A stretch of DNA of 52,760 nucleotides from Coriobacteriia bacterium. Lineage in GTDB: Bacteria > Actinomycetota > Coriobacteriia > WRKU01 > WQUG01. A program made the translations under genes and the position numbers. Under the pieces are notes generated by a model. It had not been told where the DNA came from, did not search any database, and saw nothing but the letters and a program-made list of their open reading frames with translations. Positions 22,448-48,166 of this stretch are shown piece after piece. The DNA lies in contig WRBW01000003.1 of NCBI GenBank assembly GCA_009784345.1, positions 1 through 52,760 of the forward strand, given 5' to 3'. How positions within the stretch are numbered: the stretch's first letter is position 1; each line of letters begins with the position of its first letter.

Positions 22448-23116
22448 TCAAACAGCAGCAGCTCTTGCCACCATGTCTTGATAGGCTGCAGCTGGGTCAT
22501 CTGCTTTATAGAAAGCATTTCCCGCAACAAAGCAAGCTGCCCCTTGTGCAGAGCACAGTCCGATGGTGTCAGGATTTATGCCCCCATCAACCTGAATAAG
22601 CGGAGTGCGTCCAGCGCTCTCGCACATTGCCTTGAGCTCTCGCAAACGGTCAACCGTTTCAGGTATGAAGGACTGCCCAGAAAAGCCTGGATAGACCGAC
22701 ATGATAAGTATCATGTCAACACAGTCTAGATAGGGCTCAAGACTTGAGACGCAGGCGTCAGGCTTTATCGACAAGCCGAACTTCTTACCACGTGAGTGGA
22801 CGCACTCCGCCATCTTATTAACATCATTGGCAGCTTCGAGGTGAACGGTGATGTAGTCACAGCCGGCGTCGAGGTACCACTCGATGGTTTCGTCGGGGTT
22901 TTCAATCATCAGGTGTGCGTCAAAGACAAGATTTGATATCGGGCGCAGGGCCGCTATGACGGGAGGTCCAAAGGTCAGGTTGGGCACAAAGTGGCCGTCC
23001 ATGACGTCGAGGTGAATCCAAGGACAGCCGGCGTTTTCTGCCGTCTTGAGCGCAGCTGCAAGCTTGGTGAAGTCTGCCGACAAGAGCGACGGCGAAATGA
23101 TAATTGATTGAGACAT
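22448..23116 (-). CDS. rpe: Ribulose-phosphate 3-epimerase
   Basis: 222-residue TIM-barrel enzyme interconverting ribulose 5-phosphate and xylulose 5-phosphate. It has SPSLLSADF, the metal site WIHLDVMDGHFVPNLTFG, MSVYPGFSGQSFI and the phosphate-binding VDGGIN. Two copies of the dispersed word lie within 200 bp of each other here (22602 and 22797). One encodes AGRTP and the other AECVH, in different frames of the same gene. It stands between gpsA and the membrane protein. Confidence 0.96.
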   Translation of the reverse strand: MSQSIIISPSLLSADFTKLAAALKTAENAGCPWIHLDVMDGHFVPNLTFGPPVIAALRPISNLVFDAHLMIENPDETIEWYLDAGCDYITVHLEAANDVNKMAECVHSRGKKFGLSIKPDACVSSLEPYLDCVDMILIMSVYPGFSGQSFIPETVDRLRELKAMCESAGRTPLIQVDGGINPDTIGLCSAQGAACFVAGNAFYKADDPAAAYQDMVARAAAV

Positions 23117-43263: not shown

Positions 43264-44186
43264 CCGTAGTTTTGACGCGGGCTCCCATAGTAGAAGCCCG
43301 TACCTTGTGGCCGAAAGGTTTGCGCGCGCAGCTGCTCGACATAATCGCGAGGGTCTGCCCCATCGAGTACCGCACGATAGGCAGAAATCACCGTCGTTAT
43401 ATAGTTGACTCCTTTGGTGCGTCCCTCTATCTTGAGGCTATCGATCCCCGCATTACAGAGGTCATCGATGTGCTCAATCATGTTGAGGTCATAGGGGCTA
43501 AAGATAGTGGTGTATCCGTCATCTTCAATGACGGGAATGCTTTCGTTAGGGCGCTTTTTTTCAACGAGCTCATAGGACCAGCGGCAACTGTGAGCGCACT
43601 GACCTTTGTTTGCGTCTCTGTCAGCAAGATAGTTACTGATGATGCAGCGCCCACTAATAGCCATGCATTGCGCACCATGCACAAAGACCTCGAGCTGCAT
43701 GTCCTCAGGCAGGTTCTTGCGAAGCTCTGTCAGTTCACGTAAGTCAAGTTCACGTGCAGCAACGATACGCCTCGCACCTGCCTCGTACCAAGTCTGAGCA
43801 CTGAGGGAATTGGCAACACTTGCTTGTGTGCTGACATGCAGGTCGATTTCAGGTGCGATCTCGCCTGCTAGCTTTGCAGCCCCCAGATCAGACACTATGA
43901 AGGCATCAACCCCGGTGTCTTTTACGGCACCTAAGTAAGCTCTCAGAGAAGAGAGATCAGATTCATGGATGAGGGCATTGACGGTGAGGTAGATAAGGCG
44001 TTTTCTGGAGTGGACGTACTCCGCCGCGCTTTTCAATTCGTCGACACAAAAATTGGCAGCATTGTAGCGCAGGCCAAAGCTCTTACCGCCACAGTAGACG
44101 GCATCGGCCCCGCAGTCTATGGCGAGCTTAAGCGCCTCGATACTACCTGCAGGCGCCAACAGTTCTGGTCTCTGGTGCGCTCTCAT
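43257..44186 (-). CDS. U32 family peptidase-like protein (truncated C-terminus)
   Basis: 309 residues; relatives (TrhP/RlhA, tRNA ho5U34 or rRNA hydroxylation) are usually 400 or more. The opening [24 protein letters not shown] and the cysteine motif [22 protein letters not shown] are typical, and the family element GTGFYYGSP is reached just before the stop. The final barrel domain is missing. The end overlaps the adhesin stop by 7 bp, so an insertion of the adhesin block may have cut the gene. It overlaps the ATPase stop at its start (ATGA). A dispersed-word copy (44011) encodes AEYVH. Confidence 0.85.
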
Positions 44187-44923
44187 CCTACCTTGAGATG
44201 GCCAAGGAAAGTCTTCGTACGCTCATGTTGCGGATTTTCAAAGATAGCCTCTGGGGGTCCTTCTTCGACGATGTATCCACCATCCATAAACACGACTCGA
44301 TCTGCGACATCACGCGCAAAGCCCATTTCATGAGTCACGACAATCATGGTCATGCCGCCTTCTGCCAGATCACGCATGACGTTGAGCACGTCACGAACCA
44401 GCTCGGGGTCAAGTGAAGAGGTCACTTCGTCAAAGAGCATAACCGTCGGCTCCATCGCAAGTGCGCGCGCGATGGCAACACGTTGCTGCTGACCTCCTGA
44501 AAGCTGGCTGGGGAAAAAGTCGGCGCGTTCTGCAAGACCGACGCGTTCGAGCTGCGCGTAGGCAATTTCTGCCGCCTGCTCTTTGTTCATTTTGCGCACC
44601 TTCAGCAGGGCAAGCTCAACATTTCCCTGGGCTGTCTTATGCGGAAAGAGATTAAACTGCTGGAATACCATACCCAGCTGCTCGCGCGCTTTATTGATGT
44701 CAGTTCCCTTGGCGTTGATTTGGATGCCATTAACCCAGACTTCACCCGAGGTCGGGATTTCAAGCAGGTTGATGCAGCGCAGCATGGTTGATTTGCCGCT
44801 TCCCGATGGCCCGAGGACACAGACCACTTCACCCTTTTCAACTTCAAGATTTATGTCATGCAAAACGACGTTGTCGCCGTAAACCTTTTTGAGGTTTTTT
44901 ATTTGTACTATAGCTTCGCTCAT
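44183..44923 (-). CDS. Polar amino-acid ABC transporter, ATP-binding protein
   Basis: 246 residues. Walker [12 protein letters not shown]-loop FQQFNLFPH, signature [14 protein letters not shown], Walker [10 protein letters not shown] (with the usual Asp-Glu) and switch His in VVTHEMGF. Matches GlnQ/HisP-type importers. The ATG at 44923 is 8 nt after AAGG. It follows the permease gene and overlaps the U32 gene. Confidence 0.94.
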
Positions 44924-44928
44924 GTTCA

Positions 44929-45876
44929 CTACCTTGGATCCTGCAAAATGTTTTCATCGTGGCTCACAATGTGAGTAGATGGAACATTTAGGCGGGGTTG
45001 TCGTTTTCCAGGACGACCAGATGGTGCAGCTCCCGAGTCTTGTTCTGCCAACTTGTTCTCTAATCTGGCAACCAGTCTACCAGCAGGTATCGTAACAATG
45101 AGATAAAAACAGGCAGCAACCGTGAGAGGTGTCATATTAAACACGCGAGCGGACTCGATACGAGCATTGAGCATGACTTCGCCGATGGCAACCATGGCAA
45201 AAAGCGCCGTATCCTTCAAGAGCAAAATGAATTCTGACATACACGTTGGGATGATACGCCTAAAGGTCTGAGGCAGGACAACATAGGTCATGGCCATCGA
45301 GGTCTTCATGCCCAGTGAGCGCGCAGCCTCCATCTGTCCCTTAGGAATGGACTGGATGCCCGCACGAAAGATTTCTGCCAGATAAGCTGCAGAATTCGCA
45401 GAAAGAATCAGGAAGGCGCGAAACCAAGCTGAAAAGCCCAGCCCCAGAAAGCTTACCTGACTAAAGGGGTCCATTGCTGTTTGAAAGGCAGGTATCAGCG
45501 GCAGACCCATGTAGATAATCAAGATTTGCAGCAGCAGAGGCGTTCCTCTGACCACATCAATGTAGAAGGTTGAAATCCAGCGCAGGGGTGCAATCTTGCT
45601 CATCTTCATAAAAGCAAGACCAAGGCCAAAGGGGATGGCGAGGGCAAAGCCTATAAAGCCCAGTGCCAGCGTGATGGGAAAGCCCTGCAAAACCATCGGG
45701 AAGGTATCGATGGCAATACTGGGAGAAAAGAAGACGCGTGTAAAAGAAAAGGTCTCCCACCATTCAAGCATTCTTGCGAAAATATTGGCAGAACCAAAGA
45801 GTCCCATTAATGCCTGCTGTCCACCCAAAGCATGACTCTGTGAAAAAGCGGTCAATAGTGCGCTCAAATCCCTCAT
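44929..45876 (-). CDS. Polar amino-acid ABC transporter, permease
   Basis: 315 residues, with about five or six transmembrane helices. The HisMQ-type region is clear: [19 protein letters not shown], then [12 protein letters not shown], and the EAA loop [17 protein letters not shown]. Residues 1-50 form an extra N-terminal segment. The ribosome site GGAGGT is directly against the ATG at 45876, so a TTG at 45867 might be the true start. Only one permease gene is present; the pore would be a homodimer. Confidence 0.9.
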
Positions 45877-45958: not shown

Positions 45959-46807
45959 TTAAGGCATCGTTGGAGGATTGTCTGCGTCGATCCAGCGAGC
46001 GTAGATTTCTGCATAGGTACCATCTGCAATAACCGCAGCTAGTGCATCATTGATGGCCTCAGCAAGACCTGTTCTGCTCTTGCCCATCGAGAATCCAAAG
46101 TTTTCCTGTTCTGCTGAAGGAATCGGAATCGTCTTAATGGCAAAGTCGCCTTCTGCAGCCTGGTTCAAGACAACGGGGATGTCCAAAATAACAGCATCTA
46201 CTTCACCTGAAGACATGGCGAGGAAGGTGTCTTGTCCGCCAGCGTAAGGCATGATAGTCACACCTTTGTCTTCGAGGTAGTCAGTAGCAAAAATATGACC
46301 GGTGGTTCCTGTCTGCACGCCAACGCGTGAGCCCTCACCTAAATCAGAGATAGAGGTAATGTTCGAATCTGCTGGTACACCCAGTGCCTGGAATGACACG
46401 AAGTAGGGATTCGAGAACAGAATTGACTGAGCGCGCTCTTCGGTAATGGTCATAGCACTTGCGGCAAAGTCAAAGTCACGACTGTCAGAACTCAGAGCAG
46501 TCAGCAGTGCGTCCCACTCAAAGAAGACGAATTCGACTTCGGCTCCCATTTTTTCAGCAATAGCCTTAACCAAGTCAATGTCAAAGCCAACTACTTCTCC
46601 GCCATCGCGAGACTCAAAGGGAGGATAGGTAGGATCTGTCGCTACTACAAGCGTCTTTCCATCCCCACGTACGGCATCTGCAAGCGTCCAGTCGGCCGTT
46701 GCCTGCACATCATCAACTGCTTCTTCGGTGGCTGAACAGCCAACGACAGCAAAGGCAGCAACTACCATCAGTGCTGCAAGAATCAAACTAAGTAAACCCT
46801 TCTTCAT
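45959..46807 (-). CDS. Polar amino-acid ABC transporter, substrate-binding lipoprotein
   Basis: 282 residues. Lipoprotein signal with lipobox VVGC, then an SBP_bac_3 fold: LVVATDPTYPPFESRDGGEVVGFDIDL, DFAASAMTITEERAQSILFS and GVQTGTTGHIFATDYL. The family binds glutamine, arginine, cystine or similar amino acids; the ligand cannot be read from sequence. The start at 46807 has AAGGTGTGAGG before it. First gene of the transporter operon. Confidence 0.92.
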   Translation of the reverse strand: MKKGLLSLILAALMVVAAFAVVGCSATEEAVDDVQATADWTLADAVRGDGKTLVVATDPTYPPFESRDGGEVVGFDIDLVKAIAEKMGAEVEFVFFEWDALLTALSSDSRDFDFAASAMTITEERAQSILFSNPYFVSFQALGVPADSNITSISDLGEGSRVGVQTGTTGHIFATDYLEDKGVTIMPYAGGQDTFLAMSSGEVDAVILDIPVVLNQAAEGDFAIKTIPIPSAEQENFGFSMGKSRTGLAEAINDALAAVIADGTYAEIYARWIDADNPPTMP

Positions 46808-46975
46808 TACCTCACACCTTTCCTGTGATCGAACGAATGCTCTCCACGTCATTCATTATTCTAGCTAGTGTATTGTTTCACAACAAAGTTGGCTGTGCAA
46901 TTTTTATCTGTCCTATACAAAAAAAGTGCGCAGACACGTATATATGTATACATTTATGAATGATTTTATCCAAGC

Positions 46976-47016
46976 GCCCTCCACATAATGCCAACAGCTC
47001 TATGCGTTTTGAGGGC
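46976..47016 (-). promoter_or_regulatory. Hairpin in the leader region of the ABC transporter operon
   Basis: GCCCTC (46976-46981) pairs with GAGGGC (47011-47016) and, in the minus-strand RNA, an inner CGCATA pairs with TATGTG with one G-U. It lies about 170 bp upstream of the binding-protein start. The whole 46808-47061 stretch has no gene; near 46918-46940 there is an AT-rich part with alternating TA steps. Confidence 0.35.
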
Positions 47017-47061
47017 ATACATTTCAGATTATGTGCAGATTAGTATGAGGATTCGTGAAGT

Positions 47062-47328
47062 GCTTTCGCGCGGCTGACCTGGTCTTTGACCCCACACTCG
47101 CATACTGGAGCTTTTGCTTGATATGATCTCACGACTAACCCTCTCGCCTGCTCCCTCCTGTTGCCAGGAAATCAACGTAGACGGTACGACTTACCCCTAA
47201 GGTGCGCCATGCTCACGTACACTCCTGTCGAGATATACGCTTACGTGGATTCTTTCGGCCGCACCTGCCTATGAACTAACGGGCATCACCTGTGTGACAC
47301 ACGCGCAACCACAGACCCGCGCGAAAGC
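47062..47328 (+). ncRNA. Structured RNA upstream of comF, candidate raiA-motif RNA
   Basis: GCTTTCGCGCGG (47062-47073) is perfectly complementary to CCGCGCGAAAGC (47317-47328), closing a 267-nt region by a 12-bp stem. Inside are further pairings: GGTC/GACC near 47081-47091, GGTGCG (about 47200) with CGCACC (about 47265) around CACGTA/TACGTG, CCTG/CAGG, and CTGTG/CACAG near the 3' end. No long frame runs through it, and GC is higher than in its surroundings. raiA-motif RNAs of about this kind are known upstream of comF-like genes in Actinomycetota. The raiA identity is my guess from location; the structure itself is directly visible. Strand is taken from comF. Confidence 0.65.
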
Positions 47329-47357
47329 TTGACTATTATACACTCTCGCCGCAAAAT

Positions 47358-47401
47358 CTTTAAGCTTTCTTTCACCTTGAGTTAAGGATCCTTTAAGGGT
47401 C
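47358..47401 (+). promoter_or_regulatory. Array of 11-bp direct repeats upstream of comF
   Basis: Four contiguous units, CTTTAAGCTTT (47358), CTTTCACCTTG (47369), AGTTAAGGATC (47380) and CTTTAAGGGTC (47391), match the repeat before the adhesin gene. CTTTAAGCTTT followed by CTTTCA occurs almost identically at 39536-39552. The third unit ends at the -35 position relative to CATACT, as the last unit does at the adhesin promoter. Confidence 0.65.
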
Positions 47402-47413
47402 AGCTGCCATACT
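47385..47413 (+). promoter_or_regulatory. comF promoter candidate
   Basis: CATACT at 47408-47413 could serve as -10, with the 17-bp spacer and -35 slot occupied by the 11-bp repeats. The -35 (AGGATC) is poor, so an activator would be needed. The comF ribosome site GAGGTGAT lies a few bases downstream of the expected start. Confidence 0.45.
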
Positions 47414-47431
47414 GCTTGTGAGGTGATAAAA

Positions 47432-48166
47432 ATGAAGCTCCAGACACAGCTCTTGCAGGCTCCGATTCTCAGCAGTATGAAGGATATACTGGGGGAAATT
47501 GTTGCTCCGACTCGCTGCGCCGGCTGCGAGCGCCAGGGCGCAGTCTTCTGTCCGCACTGCATGGCATCACTGCCCTACCTTTACCTTCAGCACCAGGCTT
47601 GCCCAAAGTGTGCCGGTCCCTATGGTGCGCTGACCTGCACGGAATGTTGGGAAGTAAGTTACAGCTTTAGCCATGCCTTGGCACTGAGCCTGCTTGACGG
47701 CCCACTTGCCCGCGCCATCGTCATCTACAAGGACGGAAATGAGCGGAGGCTGGCTCGCTGCTTTGGAGCTCTGCTGGCGGAGTGCGTCCAAACCACCTGG
47801 TCTGAGTGGCTCGACCCTGATTGTCAAATCAGCTGGATTCCTGCTACGGCTGCTGCTGTTCGAAGGCGTGGCTTTGACCACGGAGAACTGCTTGCTTACG
47901 CCCTATCAAAGCAGCTTAACATTGCGGCACTCCCCCTCTTGTCGCGACCACGCGCACGCGACCAAAGAGGTTTGTCGCGCAAGCAGCGCATGAAGGGGTT
48001 CAAGGAATTTACGGTACAGCCACAAAAAAATAAGCAAGACCTGCACAAGGTCTTGCTTATTGATGATGTCTTTACCACCGGTGCCACCTTAGAAGCAGCA
48101 AGCCTAGCTTTGCTCGAAAATGGTGCTGCAGAAGTTCGGGTCGCTGTATTAGGCCGCGCCTGGTAG
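47432..48166 (+). CDS. comF: ComF family protein (amidophosphoribosyltransferase-like)
   Basis: 244 residues. An N-terminal zinc finger with CAGCERQGAVFCPHC and, later, CPKC and CTEC cysteine pairs. A C-terminal phosphoribosyltransferase fold has SWIPATAAAVRRRGFDH and the PRPP loop VLLIDDVFTTGAT. ComF/ComFC is needed in natural transformation, acting with the helicase ComFA on incoming single strands; no comFA is seen here. The ATG at 47432 follows GAGGTGATAAAA. It is alone on the plus strand between an RNA and mtnA. The dispersed word (47779) encodes AECVQ. Confidence 0.92.
   Translation: MKLQTQLLQAPILSSMKDILGEIVAPTRCAGCERQGAVFCPHCMASLPYLYLQHQACPKCAGPYGALTCTECWEVSYSFSHALALSLLDGPLARAIVIYKDGNERRLARCFGALLAECVQTTWSEWLDPDCQISWIPATAAAVRRRGFDHGELLAYALSKQLNIAALPLLSRPRARDQRGLSRKQRMKGFKEFTVQPQKNKQDLHKVLLIDDVFTTGATLEAASLALLENGAAEVRVAVLGRAW

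Follow-up and report, generated by a model that had tools for sequence, protein, structure and literature searches.

A putative raiA/ModT noncoding RNA gene with its own predicted promoter lies back to back with comF in a Coriobacteriia-type genome

The stretch of DNA analysed here, in the following referred to as the window, comprises 52,760 nucleotides of a Coriobacteriia-type MAG. In this window, positions 47062-47073 (GCTTTCGCGCGG) are the perfect reverse complement of positions 47317-47328, giving a stem of 12 bp. Such 12-mer inverted repeats, with arms 150-350 nt apart, occur in only two places in the 52.8 kb. A perfect 14-nt inverted repeat with arms about 183 nt apart was also observed at 22600-22810. 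There is no gene of note within 47062-47328. On one side, comF, which encodes a ComFC-like phosphoribosyltransferase with Cys ribbons (PF00156, E 9e-8), occupies the plus strand up to position 48166, starting at either GTG 47423 or ATG 47432. On the other side lie three genes of an ABC transporter, all on the minus strand: a solute-binding protein (SBP_bac_3; 45959-46816; PF00497, E 2.8e-38), a permease (44929-45876; PF00528) and an ATPase (44183-44929; PF00005).

Rfam 15 was scanned with cmscan, and a match to RF03072 (raiA) was obtained at 47325-47065 on the minus strand. It covers the model completely (positions 1-209) and scores 148.3 bits (E 6e-37), compared to a curated gathering cut-off of 101.3 bits. 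In a permissive Rfam scan of 46700-47500 the plus strand gave no credible match. The OLE, ROOL and GOLLD families of Rfam had no match in cmscan, and neither did the RNA in the phage records searched. A first-pass annotation had claimed a structured RNA in 47062-47328 and had likened it to the raiA-motif RNAs. The first claim is borne out by the 12-bp stem and by the covariation described below, the second by the Rfam score together with the same covariation. The scan with the raiA model, which it had proposed as a check, thus returned a full-length match, but on the minus strand. We assign the raiA/ModT noncoding RNA to 47062-47328 on the minus strand, based on the match, the fold and the covariation, with the P1 stem extended to 47328/47062. 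Judged by its sequence, it is a complete and ordinary copy of this known family.

The strand is of importance, as the same annotation had read the RNA on the plus strand and placed it upstream of comF. In that case the plus strand would encode a structured leader of comF, and indeed the closing stem is symmetric and could form on either strand, with the comF start only about 95-104 nt beyond the RNA stretch. However, the Rfam match, the folding energies and the G-U pairs all favor the minus strand. The minus-strand fold of 47062-47328 reaches -103.3 kcal/mol (z -3.7, none of 200 shuffles as good), compared to -77.9 kcal/mol for the plus strand (z -2.2, 6 of 200 shuffles as good), and the RNA strand folded better than the opposite one in all 13 order members tested. 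When the Rfam pairs were mapped from the window onto 44 relatives, the minus strand showed 1810 Watson-Crick, 292 G-U and 49 A-C cells. G-U cells become C-A mismatches on the plus strand, and the conserved structure therefore belongs to the minus strand. A plus-strand RNA before comF is thus refuted as far as the conserved structure is concerned.

The arrangement of the neighbours leads to the same result. We compared 81 loci of the class, namely that of the window and others chosen mostly from the higher-scoring of the 140 hits; their proportions are therefore not those of an unbiased sample. In 65 of these, comF lies upstream and on the same strand, where the RNA cannot lead it; a further 11, that of the window among them, have a divergent comF, and the remaining 5 have none within 4 kb. 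A cis-regulatory leader of comF would have to lie upstream of it on the same strand, whereas here the RNA is on the minus and comF on the plus strand. The two stand back to back and the RNA would be transcribed away from comF, which is its divergent neighbour and not its target. Overall, we consider a comF leader on the plus strand as practically excluded.

To describe the conserved structure, the Rfam pairs were mapped from the window onto an alignment of the 44 relatives. In this alignment 87.5% of the cells were paired, compared to 34-45% when the partners were slid by 1-3 columns. Changes on both sides were found in 29 of 55 pairs, amounting to 278 cells against 91 in shuffles (none of 500 shuffles reached 278), and the covariation score was 0.347, compared to 0.170 in shuffles and no more than 0.115 with slid partners. 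The covariation in relatives that the first-pass annotation had regarded as decisive is therefore strong. The most regular elements are P1, P6, P7, P8 and a helix of 7 bp (47266-47260/47206-47200), which are 97-100% paired in the relatives. In the case of P1, the 3' arm of the closing stem (47065-47073, minus strand) pairs with 47317-47325; helix 1 as a whole is 98.1% paired, and 9 of its 12 pairs changed on both sides. In the case of the 7-bp helix, the 5' half AGGUGCG (47260-47266, minus strand) pairs perfectly in the window with the 3' half CGCACCU (47200-47206, minus strand), 96.8% of the cells are paired, and 3 of 7 pairs show changes on both sides. From the residue numbering in PMC11751092 we infer that this helix is the pk-1 seen by cryo-EM, in which the P3 loop and the pk-loop form 7 consecutive pairs. 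For helices 3 and 5, the pairs given by Rfam agreed poorly with the 44-relative alignment, probably reflecting misalignment or differences between models. Published raiA structure models disagree around P3 and P4 (PMC11706538).

The RNA appears to have its own promoter. A perfect -10 box, TATAAT, is located at 47335-47340 on the minus strand, and transcription is expected to start near 47328; the -35 box, TTAAAG, is at the correct spacing and is poor as judged by eye. For comparison with the relatives, a -10-like hexamer was defined by at least 4 of 6 matches, with A as its second and T as its last letter. Each of the 81 loci of the class has such a hexamer beginning 12-18 nt ahead of the model start, 15 of them a perfect TATAAT, compared to about 4% of the control windows placed farther upstream. 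The housekeeping promoter that characterizes the raiA family is thus represented here by a TATAAT box at a fixed place. The box is kept whether comF is on the same strand, on the opposite strand or absent. The RNA is independent of the orientation of comF. In 12 of the 81 loci (L032, L035 and L053 among them) the -10-like box overlaps the comF frame or its stop codon; in the case of L100 this overlap is perhaps an artefact of using stop-to-stop frames.

Does the RNA nevertheless serve competence in trans, and stay near comF for this reason? According to the part of PMC11706538 that cites Soares et al. 2024, comFC adjoins 74% of the raiA members in variable orientation, and the neighbourhoods with comFC and a periplasmic-binding-protein gene, together with this variability, are already published (PMC11706538, PMC11477304). 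Homologues of comEC and dprA are also present in the genome of the window. Against this stands that the window's family keeps the RNA while comF is inverted or moved; at three of the five loci without a nearby comF (those of G023, G038 and G026), comF was found on another contig. Furthermore, in relatives with an upstream comF the distance from the comF stop to the RNA start is usually, and that to its promoter often, only tens of bases, so that physical closeness may suffice to hold the two together. Finally, the known phenotypes relate to the growth transition, to sporulation and to aggregation, and not to the uptake of DNA. We therefore regard a role in competence as very improbable, and the link to competence suggested by the first-pass annotation did not find support, as RNA and promoter are kept where comF is inverted or elsewhere.

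A second alternative concerns the genes on the RNA's own strand. The solute-binding protein gene is the next one downstream, approximately 246 nt away, and 71 of the 81 loci have a gene of this type (PF00497) 3' of the RNA in the same orientation; in some relatives, such as G017, its ATG comes only about 30 nt after the RNA end. A search for an intrinsic terminator between the RNA and this gene in the window gave none, so that a long read-through transcript with some effect in cis is possible. In addition, Rfam labels RF03072 as 'Cis-reg; riboswitch'. The RNA could thus be a cis leader of the ABC transporter, whose mRNA would start at the RNA promoter and whose read-through would be controlled by folding. 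However, the gap of about 246 nt contains a promoter-like site with 9 of 12 matches (46883-46855), which is weak evidence, about ten loci have no such protein, some of them with a gene on the opposite strand next, and the C. difficile RNA works in trans (PMC11706538). Altogether we hold the transporter leader to be unlikely, although less so than a role in competence, and favor an RNA acting on its own.

To place the locus in a broader context, the RNA and its possible partners were surveyed in related genomes. Of 149 genomes of the class, 140 carry the raiA RNA, all except one of them as a single copy, and it was found in 76 of the 198 genomes taken from the phylum; it is also single in the host genome. 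The ribosome hibernation factor after which the RNA is named (PF02482) was found in 126 of the 149 class genomes. Both occur in 122 genomes, and in 95 of these the factor gene follows the RNA in the same orientation at a distance of 0.2-5.4 kb. In the family of the window, PF02482 was found in none of nine genomes and the RNA in all nine; in the sister family, the respective numbers are none and two of three. This absence in the two families versus the rest of the class has a p of about 1e-11 (Fisher's test, ignoring relatedness). The nine family genomes are 59-94% complete, making a single absence weak and the joint absence strong. Taken together, the 12 genomes of these two sister families (f1 and f3, G000 included) yielded no S30AE ribosome hibernation factor, which is found in nearly all other genomes of the class.

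Two further candidates were considered in the same genomes. A link to sporulation was rejected for the host, since Spo0A was not found in its genome. In the case of c-di-GMP, the genome encodes one GGDEF protein, and none was found in six RNA-bearing members of the order (G008, G011, G023, G038, G026 and G029), which are incomplete MAGs, G008 being 94% and G026 90% complete. This disfavors c-di-GMP as the conserved core, suggestively only given the incompleteness; if true in complete genomes, the absence would separate the RNA from c-di-GMP.

Like other raiA/ModT RNAs, the RNA of the window shows a full-length model match, the conserved core, P1, P6-P8, a pk-1-like helix and its own promoter, with comFC and a periplasmic-binding-protein gene as neighbours. 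It differs by its divergent comF, which is usually upstream and co-directional, by a variable hairpin of 26 nt inserted after model position 22, and by the lack of a detected hibernation-factor gene in its genome. With OLE, ROOL and GOLLD it shares being a large, highly structured bacterial RNA whose biochemical activity was unknown at discovery; those RNAs form multimers, whereas raiA is a monomer in cryo-EM (PMC12286853). In C. difficile, the RNA is transcribed from a sigma-A promoter as a stable transcript that reaches very high levels during growth, and it acts in trans; in clostridia it affects the stationary-phase transition, sporulation and c-di-GMP (PMC11706538). The raiA RNA has no expression platform, and a ribozyme has been proposed (PMC11751092).

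Our main reading, to which we assign a probability of roughly 0.85, is that the locus holds a single raiA/ModT gene on the minus strand, whose own promoter would give rise to an independent, trans-acting RNA of about 265 nt with a role as described in clostridia. In detail, minus-strand transcription would begin near 47328, directed by a promoter of the housekeeping type that has a perfect TATAAT box. The product would carry the long P1 closing stem and the conserved raiA core with the 7-bp pk-1 helix. It would act independently in trans, neither as a leader or riboswitch of comF nor bound to the hibernation-factor gene, and most likely through its folded core, on some partner or substrate. 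By analogy to the clostridia, this would possibly occur in growth transitions of this Coriobacteriia-like lineage.

This is mostly confirmatory, because the family is already catalogued; modestly new is the persistence of the RNA where its usual neighbours are flipped or lost. That the RNA persists here while comF faces away and the protein gene it is named after was not found represents a natural dissociation, which weakens explanations based on neighbourhood and points toward a more general activity. More tentatively, and with the odds rather against it, the family of the window, several members of which appear to come from termite guts, may have lost the hibernation factor and in part inverted or relocated comF, with several members lacking a diguanylate cyclase, all while keeping RNA and promoter for a role outside hibernation, competence, sporulation and c-di-GMP. 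If this were true, the RNA might even have taken over the growth-arrest task of the lost factor.

Some observations concern comF and its relatives. The relatives of the comF protein share invariant Cys pairs and a LLIDDVFTTGAT motif, and the named ones are Coriobacteriia MAGs, as obtained with an alignment query. The isolate names of the closest relatives, as we read them, suggest termite-gut assemblies. Within the comF reading frame, the minus strand shows a strong hairpin resembling a terminator, with a T run after it, at 48061-48029.
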